Source of the DNA: Actinoplanes lobatus
GTDB taxonomy: Bacteria; Actinomycetota; Actinomycetes; Mycobacteriales; Micromonosporaceae
NCBI RefSeq assembly: GCF_014205215.1
Contig: NZ_JACHNC010000001.1
Coordinates: forward strand, 7,188,501 to 7,252,500
Reading direction: 5' to 3'
Length of the DNA stretch: 64,000 bases
The notes under the pieces are model-generated. The model was given only the letters and a program-made list of their open reading frames with translations. It was not told where the DNA came from and ran no database searches. Positions 1,216-38,985 of the stretch are shown in pieces (the stretch's first letter is position 1; every line of letters begins with the position of its first letter). The position numbers and the translations under genes were made by a program.

Positions 1216-2424
1216 GTGCTGCACATCAACGTCAACATCCTCAACGCCGGCGTCTTCGGCGGCTCGTGGCGTTTCCCGGGCACCGACGGCACCGCCGCCT
1301 ACCGCATCGAGCACTACACCGCGATCGCCAAGAAGGCCGAACAGGCCAAGCTCGACGCGGTCTTCCTGGCCGACGGGCCGGTGCTCGACCCGAGCGTACG
1401 GCACCGGCCCGGCAACAACCTGGAGCCGACCACGGTGCTGGCCCGCATCGCCGCACAGACCGAGCGGATCGGGCTGATCGGCACGCTGTCGTCGTCGTAC
1501 AACGATCCGGCCGAACTGGCCCGGCGCCTCGGCGACCTCGACCATGTCAGCGGCGGCCGGTTCGGCTGGAACGTGGTCACCACGGCGGGGCCGCTCGCGG
1601 CGCGCAACTTCGGCCGCACCGCCGAGCCCGAACACGGCTGGCGCTACCGGCGGGCGGCGGATGTCGCCGCCCACGTCGTTCGGGCCTGGGCCGGACGCGA
1701 CGACCTGGTCTCGCCGCAGGGCCGGCCGGTCGTGGTGCAGGCCGGCGGCTCCAGCGACGGGCGCCGGCTGGCCTCCCGCATCGGCGAGGTGATCTTCTCA
1801 GCGGATCAGGACCTCGGGCACGCCCGTGACTTCCGGGCCGAGATCCGCGCCGGAGCGGCCGCCTTCGGCCGGCGCCCGGAGGAGATCGTGGTCCTGCCCG
1901 GCCTGTCCACCGTGGTCGGCAGCACCGAGGCCGAGGCCAAGGCCCGCCGGGAGCTACTCGACGAGATCCTGCCGACGGCGTACGCCCGCGGCCGGCTCGC
2001 CGGTCAGCTCGGCATCTCCCTCGACGGGCTCTCCGACGACGAGCTGATCCCGGCCGAACTGCTCCGCGACCCGGACGAGGCCGGCGGTTCGCAAACCTTC
2101 TACCGGGTGGTCAAGGACATCATCGACCGGGACCGGCCCACCCTCGGCCAGCTGCTGAAACGGCTCTCCGGCGGCGGCGGCCACCGGATCGTCACCGGCA
2201 CCCCGGAGCAGATCGCCGACGACATCGAAACCTGGTACCGGGCCGGCGCGGCCGACGGCTTCAACGTCATGCCCGACGTGCTGCCGTCCGGCTTCGACGA
2301 CTTCGCCGACCACGTCATCCCCGAGCTACAGCGCCGCGGCCTGTTCCGCACCGAGTACGAGGGGTCCACCCTGCGCGCCCACCTCGGTCTCGCCGTCCCC
2401 GCCCTTCCGGAGGTCGCCGTTTAA
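1216..2424 (+). CDS. LLM-class flavin-dependent monooxygenase, NtaA/SnaA/DszA type
   Basis: A predicted FMNH2-dependent monooxygenase of 402 residues, the usual length for the NtaA/SnaA/DszA branch of the luciferase superfamily. Family features visible are the N-terminal strand LHINVNILNAG, the DAVFLADGP segment, the SSSYNDPAELARR loop and SGGRFGWNVVTT. Relatives cleave C-S or C-N bonds in nitrilotriacetate, dibenzothiophene sulfone or alkylated cysteines. The GTG start is supported by AGGAG five bases upstream. The stop codon touches the right end of a TnpB insertion that now separates this gene from the rest of its operon. The substrate is unknown. A reduced flavin must come from a separate reductase, and the nitroreductase at the operon end is a candidate. 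Confidence 0.92.
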   Translation: MLHINVNILNAGVFGGSWRFPGTDGTAAYRIEHYTAIAKKAEQAKLDAVFLADGPVLDPSVRHRPGNNLEPTTVLARIAAQTERIGLIGTLSSSYNDPAELARRLGDLDHVSGGRFGWNVVTTAGPLAARNFGRTAEPEHGWRYRRAADVAAHVVRAWAGRDDLVSPQGRPVVVQAGGSSDGRRLASRIGEVIFSADQDLGHARDFRAEIRAGAAAFGRRPEEIVVLPGLSTVVGSTEAEAKARRELLDEILPTAYARGRLAGQLGISLDGLSDDELIPAELLRDPDEAGGSQTFYRVVKDIIDRDRPTLGQLLKRLSGGGGHRIVTGTPEQIADDIETWYRAGAADGFNVMPDVLPSGFDDFADHVIPELQRRGLFRTEYEGSTLRAHLGLAVPALPEVAV

Positions 2425-3650
2425 CGATCCCCACGGATGAATCCGGGGGTTTTCCCTCCGGGGCCAGGCCCTGGATTCCCAGCTCGGACCGCACCTGATC
2501 CACCATCCCGGAAGGAGGCGATCAGATGTCTCACGTCGTCGGCACTGGCACGGTCGCGTTCAGCCGTGGCGAGAATCCGTCTCGCGGCGTTGAGGTCGCG
2601 GTCTGCGGTGTAGCCGCAGGCCGTGCACTCGAAGATGCGGACGCCCAGTCCGAGGCGGTGATTGGCTCTCTCGCCGCACCCGGAGCAGGTCATCGTGGTG
2701 TAGGCGGGCGGCACCAGCACCACCTTCCGGCCCGCCCGCATGCCACGCTCGACAAGTTCTCGCTTGCAGGCGCCGATCGCGGCGTCGGCGGCCTTGCGGG
2801 CCATCGTCGTCTTGGCGAGGAATGTCGGTTTGAAGTCCTCCACAGCGATCAAACTGTGATGCTCGGTGACGTTCTTGGCCCAGACCCGGGCGTCGTGGGT
2901 GTTCTGCCGGGCCGCCTTCTTCGCTACCCGGGCGGCCTGCCGCTTCGCGGTCTGGTAGCCCTTCGACTGCGGCTGCCCTCTCGGTCGGCGGCGGCGGGCC
3001 ATCCTGCGCTGGGATTTGGCCAGTTCAGCAGCGCACCGTTTGCGATGTCCGAGGTGCGGAAGGTCGAACGCGGGATCGGTGGTGGTGGCGGTTGCCTTCA
3101 CGCCCCAGTCGATGCCGATGCCGGGCAGGTCCGCCCCGGGTGTGGTGATCGTGTCCCGACGGACCACGAACGAGGCGTACCAATGCCCGAGGCTGTCACG
3201 GTAGACCCGCACGCTGGACGGTTCGGACGGCAGTTCCCGGGACCAGACGACAGGGATCGTGACCTTGTCCGGCAGGCGGAGCCGGCCGCCCTTGATCGAG
3301 AAGCCCCGAGTGGTGTATTCCAGGCTGGGCAGCGAGTCTTTGAGCCGCTTGACCTTCGGACTGCCCCGGCCCTTCACCGTGAACGAGTGATCCAGGGCGG
3401 TGCCGTAGGTGCGCAATGTCTGCTGCTGGGCGACCTGGGAACCGGCCCGCAGCCAGGCGTTGCGGCTGCGAGCCTCGGTCAGCAGCTGGGACAGTTTGCC
3501 GAACGTCGGCTTGCGGCGAGTCCTCTGCTGGTGGACGGCTTCGTTCCACAGCCACCGGCAGCGGCCCCACTCGCCGAGCAGTGCGGCCTCCGCGATGCGG
3601 CCGGGCCGCAGGCGGTAGGTGTAACGCACCGTCTCGTCCACATCGGACAC
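2421..3650 (-). CDS. tnpB: TnpB, RNA-guided endonuclease of an IS605-type element
   Basis: A protein of 409 residues from a GTG start; upstream in-frame codons look non-coding, and the homologous region begins with VRYTYRLRP. The RuvC-type catalytic triad is intact: GIDWGVK, IAVEDF and DRDLNAARRI. A C4 zinc-finger pair, CSGCGE and CTACG, sits between the last two motifs. It is therefore probably an active nuclease and not a nuclease-dead TldR-like regulator. The extreme C-terminus is proline/glycine-rich and runs into the right-end hairpin, as expected where the guide RNA overlaps the coding end. Its stop codon overlaps the stop codon of the convergent monooxygenase gene. It differs clearly in sequence and length from the second TnpB (387 residues) although the two elements share left ends. 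Confidence 0.92.
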   Translation of the reverse strand: MSDVDETVRYTYRLRPGRIAEAALLGEWGRCRWLWNEAVHQQRTRRKPTFGKLSQLLTEARSRNAWLRAGSQVAQQQTLRTYGTALDHSFTVKGRGSPKVKRLKDSLPSLEYTTRGFSIKGGRLRLPDKVTIPVVWSRELPSEPSSVRVYRDSLGHWYASFVVRRDTITTPGADLPGIGIDWGVKATATTTDPAFDLPHLGHRKRCAAELAKSQRRMARRRRPRGQPQSKGYQTAKRQAARVAKKAARQNTHDARVWAKNVTEHHSLIAVEDFKPTFLAKTTMARKAADAAIGACKRELVERGMRAGRKVVLVPPAYTTMTCSGCGERANHRLGLGVRIFECTACGYTADRDLNAARRILATAERDRASADDVRHLIASFRDGGSGAVRAGNPGPGPGGKTPGFIRGDR

Positions 3651-3825
3651 CCTACCCGCGCAGCCCACGACCCTGGAGACCGTGAAGAGGTATGTGGAGA
3701 ACCAGCGCAACGTCTGACCAGACGCCCATCCGCCTCGACGGCGAATGGGCTACCCCTGACCTGCTCCGCAGGCGATCCGTTTCCTCCCCACGGCTAAAGC
3801 CGGGGGTTTCCACGGAAGGCATTCG
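2425..3825 (-). mobile_element. IS200/IS605-family (IS1341-like) element with tnpB only, copy 1
   Basis: The insertion lies between two monooxygenase genes and encodes TnpB but no TnpA, so it cannot transpose unaided. The left end (about 3720-3825, read on the minus strand) holds a long hairpin with a GCCCAT/ATGGGC stem and a terminal hairpin. It matches the left end at 35789-35893 over about 105 bp, including the identical run CCTGCGGAGCAGGTCAGGG. The left boundary directly follows TCAT, the minus-strand reading of ATGA at 3826-3829. The right end is a hairpin of CCCCCGGAT/ATCCGTGGGG type near 2430-2450 and is less exactly placed. The 3' end of tnpB plus this right end should encode the guide (omega) RNA by family analogy; I see no direct proof of that. 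Confidence 0.8.
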
Positions 3826-3829
3826 ATGA
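3814..3829 (+). promoter_or_regulatory. Element-borne ribosome-binding site joined to the ATGA start of the next gene
   Basis: GGAAGG at 3814-3819 lies six bases before ATG at 3826. These bases belong to the left end of the TnpB element (its CCTTCC on the other strand), so the monooxygenase downstream now depends on an insertion-supplied Shine-Dalgarno. The ATGA itself is the complement of the TCAT that borders the element. Confidence 0.6.
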
Positions 3830-4749
3830 GCACACCCATCCAACTGGCCCTGGCGGTCGGCGGCCCGGGACTGACGTCGCTGGCCGAGGCCGACGCCGTC
3901 GCGTCCACCGCCGAGCAGGCCGGCATAGCGGCGATCCGGCTCGCCGACCGGACGACCACGGGCCGGGTGCTCGACCCGAGCGTGGTGGCCGCCTATCTGG
4001 CCGGCCGGCACGGGGGAGTCGGCTACCTGCCGGTGCTGCCGACCACCGGCAACGCCCCGTACAACGCGGCGCGACGGGTGCTCTCGCTGGACCGGGCCAC
4101 CGCGGGCCGCGCCGGTGTGGTGCTGCGTCCCGGCCGCGGCGACGAGGTGAGCGAGGCCAGCGTGCCGGTGCCCGCCGCCACCGACCCGGCGCGGCGCTGG
4201 AGCGAGTACGCGCGGGTCCTGACCCGCCTCTGGGAGTCCTTTCCCCGCGCCGCACTCGTCGGCGACCAGCACAGCGGTGTGGTCGTCGAGGACAGCCTGA
4301 TCCAGGCGATCCGGCACGAGGGCGAGTTCTACCGGGTCGCCGGCCCGCTGGACGGACCCTCGTCGGTCCAGGGCCGCCCGGTCCTCGCCGCCGACCTCGG
4401 CGTCCTTGACCCGGTGGCGGTGGCGGCGGTGGCCGACGTGGTGGTGGTCGAGCACGGCCACGCGGCGGGCACGGACGCCGTACTGACCCAGGCCCTGCGG
4501 CTGGCCGGCCGCGACCGAGGCGAGGTCACCCTGCTCGGCCGGGTCAAGGTGAGCCGCGCGGATGTGGCGCCCGGACTGGAGCAGCGGCTGCGCTCCTGGG
4601 CGGACGAACACCTGCTCGACGGCCTGGAACTGGTACCCGACAGCGCGGAGACGGCGATCACCGCGCTGCGGGCGCTCACCCCGCGGCCCCCGGCACCCAC
4701 CCTGCGGGCCGCCTACGGCCTGCGCGACGTCCGGGCGGTGCTGGCATGA
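3826..4749 (+). CDS. LLM-class flavin-dependent oxidoreductase, short form
   Basis: A luciferase-like monooxygenase of 307 residues, about 100 shorter than its NtaA-type neighbours. It keeps the N-terminal barrel strand, an ADRTTTGRVLDPSVV segment equivalent to the VLDPSV region of the upstream gene, and the HEGEFYRVAGPL stretch that in relatives precedes the flavin-phosphate loop. The usual C-terminal insertion is reduced. It is probably the partner or a diverged paralogue of the other monooxygenases here; activity cannot be judged from sequence alone. The ATG start lies directly against the TnpB element, which now provides its ribosome-binding site. The next gene starts 43 bases after its stop. 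Confidence 0.85.
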   Translation: MSTPIQLALAVGGPGLTSLAEADAVASTAEQAGIAAIRLADRTTTGRVLDPSVVAAYLAGRHGGVGYLPVLPTTGNAPYNAARRVLSLDRATAGRAGVVLRPGRGDEVSEASVPVPAATDPARRWSEYARVLTRLWESFPRAALVGDQHSGVVVEDSLIQAIRHEGEFYRVAGPLDGPSSVQGRPVLAADLGVLDPVAVAAVADVVVVEHGHAAGTDAVLTQALRLAGRDRGEVTLLGRVKVSRADVAPGLEQRLRSWADEHLLDGLELVPDSAETAITALRALTPRPPAPTLRAAYGLRDVRAVLA

Positions 4750-35686: not shown

Positions 35687-35788
35687 TCAGCGTTCACGGC
35701 CCGGCTATTGATCGGGCGGTAGGTCATGCCGCCCGACAAGGCGAGGCCTCCGGCAACCCGGTGCCTGCCGGCTCCGGAGAGCCTTCAT

Positions 35789-37175
35789 CAGATTCCTCCG
35801 TGGAGACTCCGGCCTTCAGGCCGGAGAGGAAACGGAACCCCTGCGGAGCAGGTCAGGGACAGCCCATTCGCCGTCAAGGCGGATGGGCGTCTACCCACGG
35901 ACCGTCCGCGAGGGTGGTTCCACATAGGTGTGTTAGCTTGTGAGCCGTGTCCGAACGTGCTGTGAAGCGGGCTTTCAAGTTCCGCTTCCACCCGACTCCG
36001 GAGCAGGCCGACCTGCTGAACCGGACGTTCGGGTGTGTGCGCAAGGTGTACAACCTGGCCCTGGAGGCCCGCACCACCGCCTGGTATCAGCGCCGGGAGC
36101 GGGTCAACTACAACGCCACCAGCGCCATGCTGACGGCGTGGAAGAAGACCGAGGAACTCGCGTTCCTCAACGAGGTCTCCGCCGTGCCGCTGCAGCAGGG
36201 CCTGCGGCATCTGCAAGGTGCGTTCGCCGCGTTCTGGGAGAAACGGGCCCGGTATCCGCGGTTCAAGTCCAAACACAAGTCGCGGGCCTCGGCCGAGTTC
36301 ACCCCGTCCGCGTTCCGCTGGAACAACGGCGAACTGACCCTGGCCAAGACGGCCACCCCGCTGGACATTGTCTGGTCGAGGCCACTGCCCGAAGGGCAGT
36401 CGCCGTCGACCGTGACCGTGTCCCGCGACAGCGCCGGCCGCTGGTTCGTGTCCCTGCTCTGCCAGGACACGATCGAACCCCTCCCGACCGTCGAGAACGC
36501 GGTCGGGATCGACGCCGGACTCGACCACCTGATCACCCTGTCCACCGGCGAGAAGATCACCAATCCCCGTCACGAACGCGCCGACCGTGAGCGGCTGGCC
36601 CGCGCCCAGCGGGAACTGGCCCGTAAAGAAAAGGGCTCCAGGAACCGGGACAAGGCCCGGCTGAAGGTCGCCCGCATCCACGCCCGCATCAGCGACCGGC
36701 GCCGCGACCACCTGCACAAACTGACCACTCGGCTCGTGCGTGAGACCCAAACGCTCGTGATCGAGGACCTGACCGTGCGCAACATGGTCAAGAACCACAC
36801 CCTGGCCCGCGCCATCAGTGACGCGGCCTGGACCACCTTCCGCGAACAGTTGACCTACAAATGCCAGTGGTACGGCCGGAACCTGGTCGTGATCGACCGC
36901 TGGTACCCGTCGTCCAAGGTCTGCTCGGCCTGCGGGCACCTCACCGAGAAAATGCCGCTCAACGTGCGGTCGTGGACCTGCCCCTGCGGGGCCGCCCACG
37001 ACCGTGACGTCAACGCGGCACGCAACATCCTGGCCGCCGGGCAGGCGGTGTCGGCCTATGGAGCTGGCGTAAGACCTCAACGGAAACCTCCGTCCGGGGC
37101 AGCAGGCTGAGAAGTAGGAAACCCGGTGGGCGACCACCGGAATCCCCGTCCCTTCAGGGCGGGGAGGATGTCAAG
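35789..37175 (+). mobile_element. IS200/IS605-family (IS1341-like) element with tnpB only, copy 2
   Basis: The left end (35789-35893) begins directly after TTCAT (35784-35788). It contains a CTCCGGCC/GGCCGGAG hairpin and a GCCCAT/ATGGGC hairpin, and matches the left end of copy 1. The right end is a CCCCGTCCC/GGGCGGGG hairpin at 37144-37164 followed by AGGATGTCAAG, typical of this family. No tnpA is present. The region covering the tnpB 3' end and right end should encode the guide RNA, by analogy with characterised TnpB elements; the exact right boundary is uncertain. Confidence 0.82.
35947..37110 (+). CDS. tnpB: TnpB, RNA-guided endonuclease of an IS605-type element
   Basis: A protein of 387 residues, close to the usual TnpB size. 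The N-terminus shows KRAFKFRFHPTPEQADLLNRTFGCVRKVYN, the catalytic triad is GIDAGLD, LVIEDL and HDRDVNAARNI, and the zinc finger is CSACGH with CPCG. All catalytic acids are present, so it is probably active. The GTG start lies 54 bases after the left-end hairpin. It is only distantly similar to the other TnpB of the window, particularly in the N-terminal half, although the element left ends are nearly the same. Confidence 0.94.
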   Translation: MSERAVKRAFKFRFHPTPEQADLLNRTFGCVRKVYNLALEARTTAWYQRRERVNYNATSAMLTAWKKTEELAFLNEVSAVPLQQGLRHLQGAFAAFWEKRARYPRFKSKHKSRASAEFTPSAFRWNNGELTLAKTATPLDIVWSRPLPEGQSPSTVTVSRDSAGRWFVSLLCQDTIEPLPTVENAVGIDAGLDHLITLSTGEKITNPRHERADRERLARAQRELARKEKGSRNRDKARLKVARIHARISDRRRDHLHKLTTRLVRETQTLVIEDLTVRNMVKNHTLARAISDAAWTTFREQLTYKCQWYGRNLVVIDRWYPSSKVCSACGHLTEKMPLNVRSWTCPCGAAHDRDVNAARNILAAGQAVSAYGAGVRPQRKPPSGAAG

Positions 37176-38312: not shown

Positions 38313-38900
38313 TCACGCTGCCGACGGCAGGTGGTCGATCATGGCGAGTCGGTGCTGGACGCGTACGACCGCGGCGCGCAGCAGTGGTGTGCGGAGCTGG
38401 CGTGCGGCCGCGTTCGGGGAGTCGGGTCCGTGCCGGCGGAGCATGTCGGCGAGGCGCTGCTCGAAGTTGATGACCCTGCCGTTCGGGGTGACCGTCTGGT
38501 CCGCGTAGGTCAGCGCGTCGGACACTCGTGACTGTTCGCGCGGGAATCGGGTGAGTTTTTCGGCCAGTCCGCGGGCCTGGGCCGTGTGCATCGCCGCGGA
38601 GTGGTGGGCGACCAGTGCGACGATCCGTGACGGCCACCCCGTCGTCTCCAGGTGGCGAGCGCCGTCGAGCGGGTGGAAGCCGGTGTCGTACAGGGTGGCG
38701 GCGTATCCGATGTCGTGCAGCCAGGCTGCCGCCAGCAGGATCTCGCCCTCGCTGCGCGGCCCGACCGTGGCGGCCGCCATGTCGGCCCGTCGCGCCACCC
38801 CGATCGTGTGTAGCCAGCGCTCCGGTAGATCCACCAGCAATCGTTGTGCGAGGTCGCGGGCACGGTGGACATCCCCGACGGAACGAAGAGCGTCGGTCAT
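38313..38900 (-). CDS. HD-domain phosphohydrolase-like protein
   Basis: A protein of 195 residues with an HD domain: the histidine in ERWLHTIGVARRA, the HD pair in LLAAAWLHDIGYA (about residues 62-63), and HHS further on, which together bind metal. Such proteins hydrolyse phosphates of nucleotides or similar. The start ATGA is the complement of TCAT at 38897-38900, and directly upstream lies a degenerate copy of the TnpB-element left end. GGAGGA, supplied by that left end, stands five bases from the ATG. So its translation start signal appears to derive from an insertion. Confidence 0.88.
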   Translation of the reverse strand: MTDALRSVGDVHRARDLAQRLLVDLPERWLHTIGVARRADMAAATVGPRSEGEILLAAAWLHDIGYAATLYDTGFHPLDGARHLETTGWPSRIVALVAHHSAAMHTAQARGLAEKLTRFPREQSRVSDALTYADQTVTPNGRVINFEQRLADMLRRHGPDSPNAAARQLRTPLLRAAVVRVQHRLAMIDHLPSAA

Positions 38901-38985
38901 GAGATTCCTCCGTGGATGTTGCGGCGTTCAGGCGGGAGCGGAACGGATTGCCAGCCCGGCAGGCCCAGGGCGGCTCTATTTGCCG
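38901..38985 (+). mobile_element. Solo left-end relic of the TnpB element family
   Basis: Aligned with the left end at 35789, the relic shares AGATTCCTCCGTGGA, a degenerate GCGGCGTTCAGGCGGG hairpin in place of the CCGGCCTTCAGGCCGG one, GGAACGGA, GCAGG and ATTTGCCGT (for ATTCGCCGT) in the same order, about 80% identical over the first 46 bases. It begins directly after TCAT, as the two full elements do. No tnpB or right end follows. Confidence 0.7.

Follow-up and report, generated by a model that had tools for sequence, protein, structure and literature searches.

A family of IS200/IS605-type elements, met here in Actinoplanes lobatus, inserts 3′ of TCAT, and its two ends are likely to restore the Shine–Dalgarno (SD) sequence and the stop codon at the start/stop junctions that they enter. 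On the other strand the target reads ATGA, which can be a gene start and, in 4-nt overlaps, the stop of the previous gene as well. An insertion at such a site keeps the ATG on one side and separates it from the native SD and from the upstream stop. The left end has an outward SD of its own, mostly 5–7 nt from that ATG. The right end finishes in TCAA, TTAA or TCAC, read as TTGA, TTAA or GTGA on the gene strand, and so provides a stop at the codon that lost one. The observation was made in a 64,000-nucleotide stretch of DNA (the window) and holds for a family of soil-actinobacterial elements, not for one locus.

The tnpB-only element E1 lies between two luciferase-type genes that overlap in the empty site (Table 1). 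The preliminary description had placed its left end directly after TCAT on the minus strand, the complement of the ATGA start of the downstream monooxygenase gene, with GGAAGG six bases before that ATG, and both features can be read in the sequence, where GGAAGG is followed by CATTCG and then by ATGA on the plus strand. The empty counterpart comes from the same genus (L293), with upstream and downstream proteins 97% and 93% identical to the neighbours of E1. It reads ...ccggaggtcgccgt up to the insertion point and ATGAGT beyond it, a 4-nt stop/start overlap in which the first gene ends GTC GCC GTA TGA and the ATG opens the second, and the window has the same left part as far as ...gccgt, then E1, then ATGAGC. 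The native SD, GGAGG at 7 nt before the ATG, remains with the upstream flank after the E1 insertion. The occupied upstream gene ends GTC GCC GTT TAA, whose last T and TAA come from E1; this stop rebuilt by the right end was absent from the preliminary description. The TTAA at the terminus of E1-type elements, a palindrome, ends the tnpB frame on one strand, at the last element base, and the host gene on the other.

Table 1. Features of the two elements and the left-end relic in the window (positions counted from the first nucleotide of the window)
Feature	Position	Strand	Remarks
Upstream luciferase-like monooxygenase gene	1216..2424	+	Pfam PF00296; last codon and stop from E1
Element E1, tnpB-only, IS200/IS605-type, 3′ of TCAT	2421..3825	−	1405 bp; boundaries from the L293 empty site
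E1 right-end terminus TTAA	2421..2424	+	rebuilt stop of the upstream gene
E1 tnpB open frame	2421..3710	−	429 aa counted from the first TTG (putative start)
E1 left-end subterminal hairpin	3786..3806	−	from sequence
Outward SD-like GGAAGG	3814..3819	+	6 nt before ATG; from sequence
ATGA, complement of the TCAT target	3826..3829	+	start of the downstream monooxygenase gene
Downstream luciferase-like monooxygenase gene	3826..4749	+	307 aa; Pfam PF00296
TCAT target of E2	35785..35788	+	
E2 TCCTCC	35794..35799		complement of GGAGGA
Element E2	35789..37174	+	1386 bp; tnpB 35947..37110 (Pfam); right end ...GGGGAGGATGTCAA
Left-end relic, now leader of an HD-domain gene	38897..38955	+	right limit by eye; TCAT 38897..38900, TCCTCC 38906..38911
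HD-domain gene	38313..38900	−	ATG at 38900..38898

A second pair of empty and occupied sites was found on Streptomyces plasmids. Of the ten listed plasmid matches touching both rfbA and rfbB, the three that were taken (L288, L289 and L291) are empty, with rfbA annotated at 137–1204 and rfbB at 1201–2193, again a 4-nt overlap, and three other plasmids (L097, L098 and L290) carry an element between the two genes. The occupied rfbA is still 1068 nt long and keeps its C-terminus ISS* (TCA TGA in the empty form, TCT TGA in the occupied one), and the occupied rfbB starts at the left end of the element in all three plasmids. By eye, the empty rfbA/rfbB junction has no SD at the usual spacing, so that this case shows stop and start repair, and an SD may not have been lost. 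The third occupied plasmid carries a different-looking TnpB element (L290:1272–2600); the gene start there is annotated as TTG (TTGA), which may be a third target variant, and a search of plasmids for relatives matched only the element itself. The E1 and rfbA/rfbB sites are both ATGA overlaps with insertion 3′ of a fixed tetranucleotide and no target duplication, and the target first proposed withstands the comparison.

For the survey, the handle was a stretch of the left end lying roughly 45 to 75 bp in and free of both the target and the SD. It matched 33 stretches in the named genome collection and 50 of 300 genomes of the bacterial family (at most two mismatches). From the 300 genomes, the 30 places given as loci were used together with 92 more among the matches listed; omitted were places at contig edges, copies from the genome of the window, presumed duplicates and a few others. 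Fifteen plasmid loci were collected by similarity, of which six fit the handle and were counted (L096, L097, L098, L099, L105 and L106), and 13 copies came from the A. lobatus genome itself. IS605 families of that genome with other ends (L034–L038, L048–L051) served only as a contrast outside the scoring; two of these TnpB elements (L036 and L048) are interrupted by apparently the same unrelated sequence, beginning GACTCCGTT. Removal of identical sequences left 159; three of these (L113, L120 and L123) were chance matches that lack a left end and were set aside, which gave 156. TCAT stood at the boundary in 144 of the 156, which together with the two empty sites bears out the proposed subfamily target; the other 12 were excluded from start scoring. 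Starts were called with a codon model whose training set was the long reading frames of the same DNA, and the null consisted of 1721 ordinary ATGA sites that lie in these loci but not within elements.

The enrichment at gene starts that the preliminary description had led one to expect was found. The ATGA opened an in-frame coding stretch at 90 of the 144 elements versus 360 of the 1721 null sites, and where both flanks were known 64 of 99 were start-like versus 114 of 1721, a comparison made conservative by the impurity of the null start set, only half of which has an SD energy at or below −6. Internal in-frame positions accounted for 0 of the 64 start-like insertions and for 246 of the 360 null sites. 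With four related flank pairs merged and two doubtful boundaries (L075 and L157) dropped in this count only, 60 of 93 were start-like (p = 4e-42). Stop/start overlaps made up 30 of the 64 start-like insertions versus 19 of the 114 null starts (p = 2e-5). Among 11 annotated plasmid loci, six have an annotated start exactly at the left end (five ATG, one GTG), two of these six being the same rfbA/rfbB junction. The 35 two-flank elements that were not start-like divide into 20 in non-coding and 15 in coding context. The strict start call was failed by 54 of the 144, some of which resemble starts with weak codon bias; about a third of the elements are at no called start, and E2, L040, L043, L045 and L099 are plainly not at starts.

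The outward SD of the left end is a strong one. Compared by medians, the anti-SD duplex energy was −9.3 kcal/mol for the element leaders (n = 144) and −7.8 kcal/mol for the native leaders of the 64 start-like insertions, with −4.2 and −3.6 kcal/mol for shuffled leaders and random genome DNA, respectively. In 130 of the 144 the ATG has a core of AAGGA, GGAGG, GGAGGA, AAGG, AAGGAG or AAGGAGG at a distance of 4–10 nt, and 11 of the 14 without a listed core are GGAAGA types. Predicted accessibility of the SD and start was no better in the element leader than in the native one (0.40 vs 0.42, p = 0.12). The suggestion that the subfamily has evolved an outward ribosome-binding site is upheld as to the SD-like core, and evolution for that role is not proven: the left-end hairpin is enclosed by an outer stem, and the GGA(A) of the SD also forms one of its arms, so that SD conservation is not evidence of translation alone, and part of the left-end SD may be structural.

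At the right end, 100 motif-recognised termini read TTGA (84), TTAA (12), GTGA (2) and TTGG (2) on the gene strand, a tally that is not an unbiased sample since the motif list was compiled by eye with every motif ending TCAA, TCAC, TCAG, TTAA or CCAA, and other tails could be missed. In 98 of these 100 the end gives a stop in the frame formerly ended by ATGA, and in 32 of 36 overlap calls the last codon of the upstream gene was changed silently. No right end was recognised in 44 of 138 non-redundant elements, owing to contig ends or unmatched motifs. The E1 and rfbA/rfbB empty-site cases do not depend on the motif list.

The window also contains a second complete element and a left-end relic. 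E2 does have TCAT and the complement of GGAGGA at matching distance, as had been described; no gene is evident there (the outward open reading frame has 27 aa), and the coding-model call was not start-like. Its left and right ends recur in identical form at four further genomic places, one of the five places being on the 35.5-kb contig C2. At one locus (L061, G000:C1:3562000–3577000) three same-end copies of E2 lie within 10 kb: two are at ATGA overlaps, and the third is at an in-frame ATGA, 13 codons into a reading frame. No phage match to the E2 left end was found. The genome as a whole gave 23 TnpB matches, and 7 of the 13 own-genome copies in the survey were at clear gene starts. A 19-nt pattern searched with up to three mismatches matched 19 times on the forward and 6 times on the reverse strand of this genome versus 1 and 0 for the backwards pattern, which exceeds chance, although several of the 25 matches are ordinary gene leaders. 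At the HD-domain gene, the geometry noted earlier for the solo relic proved to be as stated (Table 1); by eye, the relic can be aligned with the left end of E2 over about 60–95 bp, and it looks like a real left-end remnant. A second copy (L012, G000:C1:6568454) lies 0.66 Mb away in the same flank, next to a paralogue of the HD gene, so that one duplicated relic rather than two insertions is indicated; no right end was recognised beside either copy. In another genome of the genus (G186), the left end is identical to one already in the set, and its handle is that of A. palleronii L086/L089.

Several variants also occur. MITE-like elements of ~335–350 bp (L077, L084, L086, L089, L126, L128, L144, L145, L166 and others) have the same left end and a related right end (GGGGAGATGTCA) without tnpB; they use the same target and geometry, and 9 of 11 copies were at starts. 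A sister group (L094, L138, L151, L152 and L088) apparently targets TTCA, or TGAA on the gene strand; it makes no start codon, and its GGAG or AAGG pairs more weakly (−4.2 to −6.1 kcal/mol, n = 5). A Streptomyces subfamily uses TCAC, the complement of GTGA, with 29 TCAC, one TCAT and one neither among 31 unique left ends, 29 of which were found with a search pattern that fixed part of the SD and not the target, and two of which were plasmid loci added by hand. At 11 of the 29 TCAC ends an in-frame coding stretch is opened versus 214 of 957 null GTGA sites under the same rule (83 of 957 being start-like), a comparison in which the elements themselves were unmasked in the null and the element call was made without the upstream test. 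The adjoining genes include an annotated acyl-CoA dehydrogenase and one that we take from its protein sequence to be CobH-like. The position of the TCAC/GTG subfamily at starts is suggestive, not firm.

The assignment to IS200/IS605 (IS608 and ISDra2, and IS1341-like tnpB-only elements) rests on TnpB, Y1 TnpA in relatives, subterminal hairpins, a short fixed target that is not duplicated and has the insertion on its 3′ side, and a TCAA right end. E1 and E2 both encode TnpB (OrfB_IS605 and TNB domain); that of E1 matches Pfam PF07282/PF01385 and, by phmmer, TnpB 8h1j/8bf8 (E = 3.5e-23). No TnpA was seen in E1 or E2. When the 2 kb behind the 144 left ends were searched by tblastn, 15 had a Y1 TnpA match, which in 13 lies 118–531 nt inside the left end, between it and tnpB, and in the other two far from the left end (L198, 1466–1717; L150, 1323–1547, weak). 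The plasmid copy L101 has a TnpA matching that of ISHp608 (IS608) with E = 3.2e-22. A simple scan found a left-end stem of at least 6 in 92 of the 144, and right-end stems were required by the automatic finder and are not an independent count. As regards internal bases that might guide target choice by pairing, the base before the hairpin C is A in most TCAT ends (ATAC 93, AAAC 27), with four TCAT ends reading ATGC, and it is G in the TCAC group, but the TCAC search pattern itself fixed TG. The right end of IS608 is also TCAA, and the stop may therefore be an inherited property put to use and not one evolved for stop repair. Unlike known IS200/IS605 elements, the TCAT family has a target that equals ATGA, an outward SD in its left end and a right end that doubles as a stop, and most of its two-flank copies are at gene starts.

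IStrons, which combine a group I intron with IS605/IS607, are likewise TnpB-associated elements that reduce the cost to the host, and most of them start with a stop triplet according to excerpts of PMC4227781. IStrons excise by RNA splicing, whereas the TCAT family rebuilds the gene junction and involves no splicing. At Rfam gathering thresholds the window gave no group I intron, and no Rfam match fell at the elements; the sole Rfam match in the window is a group II intron (RF00029, 62473–62570, 42.7 bits). The target motif itself is familiar from gene architecture, the NTGA (−4 nt) overlap being the commonest spacing motif of co-directional genes in the excerpts of PMC12548453, where such overlaps and translational coupling are described as host architecture and not as something used by a mobile element. 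Among the matches listed from open-licence PMC titles and abstract openings, no earlier description of such elements was found.

The same junctions could have arisen as a structural by-product combined with survivorship, with the CCTTCCGTGG block kept as a hairpin arm or TnpA site, insertions within genes purged, and ATGA starts simply the most frequent of the TCAT sites where a GC-rich genome takes no harm. We hold this explanation to be possible but doubtful. The outer stem fits it, five pairs being Watson–Crick in 85–99% of 72 unique leaders (from 133 of the 144 elements), as does the GGAG-like stretch of the TTCA sister group, and only 15 of 99 two-flank elements are in coding context without being at a start versus 1241 of 1721 null sites. 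However, survivorship alone expects 114/480 (24%) starts and 64/99 (65%) were observed (p = 2e-14). The two bases that follow the five-pair stem are G in 43/44 and 36/44 of the unique main-class leaders and in 15/16 and 16/16 of the shorter-class ones, a sixth pair at that point being Watson–Crick in only 56%, and the SD cores differ between subfamilies (AAGGA, GGAGG, AAGGAG) yet stay 4–10 nt from the ATG. An excess over the survivor model could also come from active targeting, by which the transposase or its ssDNA substrate would favour starts via a longer consensus, GTCAT, or the local translation/transcription state. ATGAC was present in 57 of 90 start-like insertions versus 66 of 157 null start-like sites (p = 0.0015), although the null start set is impure and this fifth-base bias may reflect real starts. 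Of the five E2 copies that share their ends, and are for that reason probably young, two are at clear overlaps, one is at the start of a small ORF and one at an internal ATG in frame. The rfbA/rfbB insertions on three plasmids point the same way but are not necessarily independent, and some insertions are at no start. On balance, targeting by itself appears unlikely. The fifth-base bias, like the excess over what survivorship alone would give, leaves room for both selection and targeting; we infer that start enrichment comes mainly from lower fitness cost, with target choice contributing.

It is very improbable that a domesticated TnpB or its guide RNA regulates the operon beside the element, in the manner of TldR. 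A guide, as judged from the right-end flank, would match the upstream gene end and the native SD, which suits such a role, but many copies stand beside unrelated genes in one genome, the E2 ends are identical at five places, and the MITE-like copies keep the same geometry at starts without tnpB. The reading that we prefer remains that of ends which restore the SD and the stop; under it both neighbouring genes would still be translated, and the elements probably sit inside an operon with little harm. By homology, TnpB would use TCAT as its TAM. We are evenly divided on a wider form of this reading, in which the two ends form a translational junction, the target changes within the NTGA code (mostly TCAT/ATG, TCAC/GTG in the Streptomyces subfamily, and TTG once, in L290), and a decayed end is left as a host ribosome-binding site.

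If true, this would be a transposon made harmless by rebuilding the translation signals that it breaks, not by self-splicing, and it would explain how tnpB elements spread, nearly cost-free, inside the operons of gene-dense genomes. It predicts that a start codon serves the TnpB nucleases of the TCAT family as TAM and that transposon ends can be domesticated as host leaders, such as that of the HD-domain gene.
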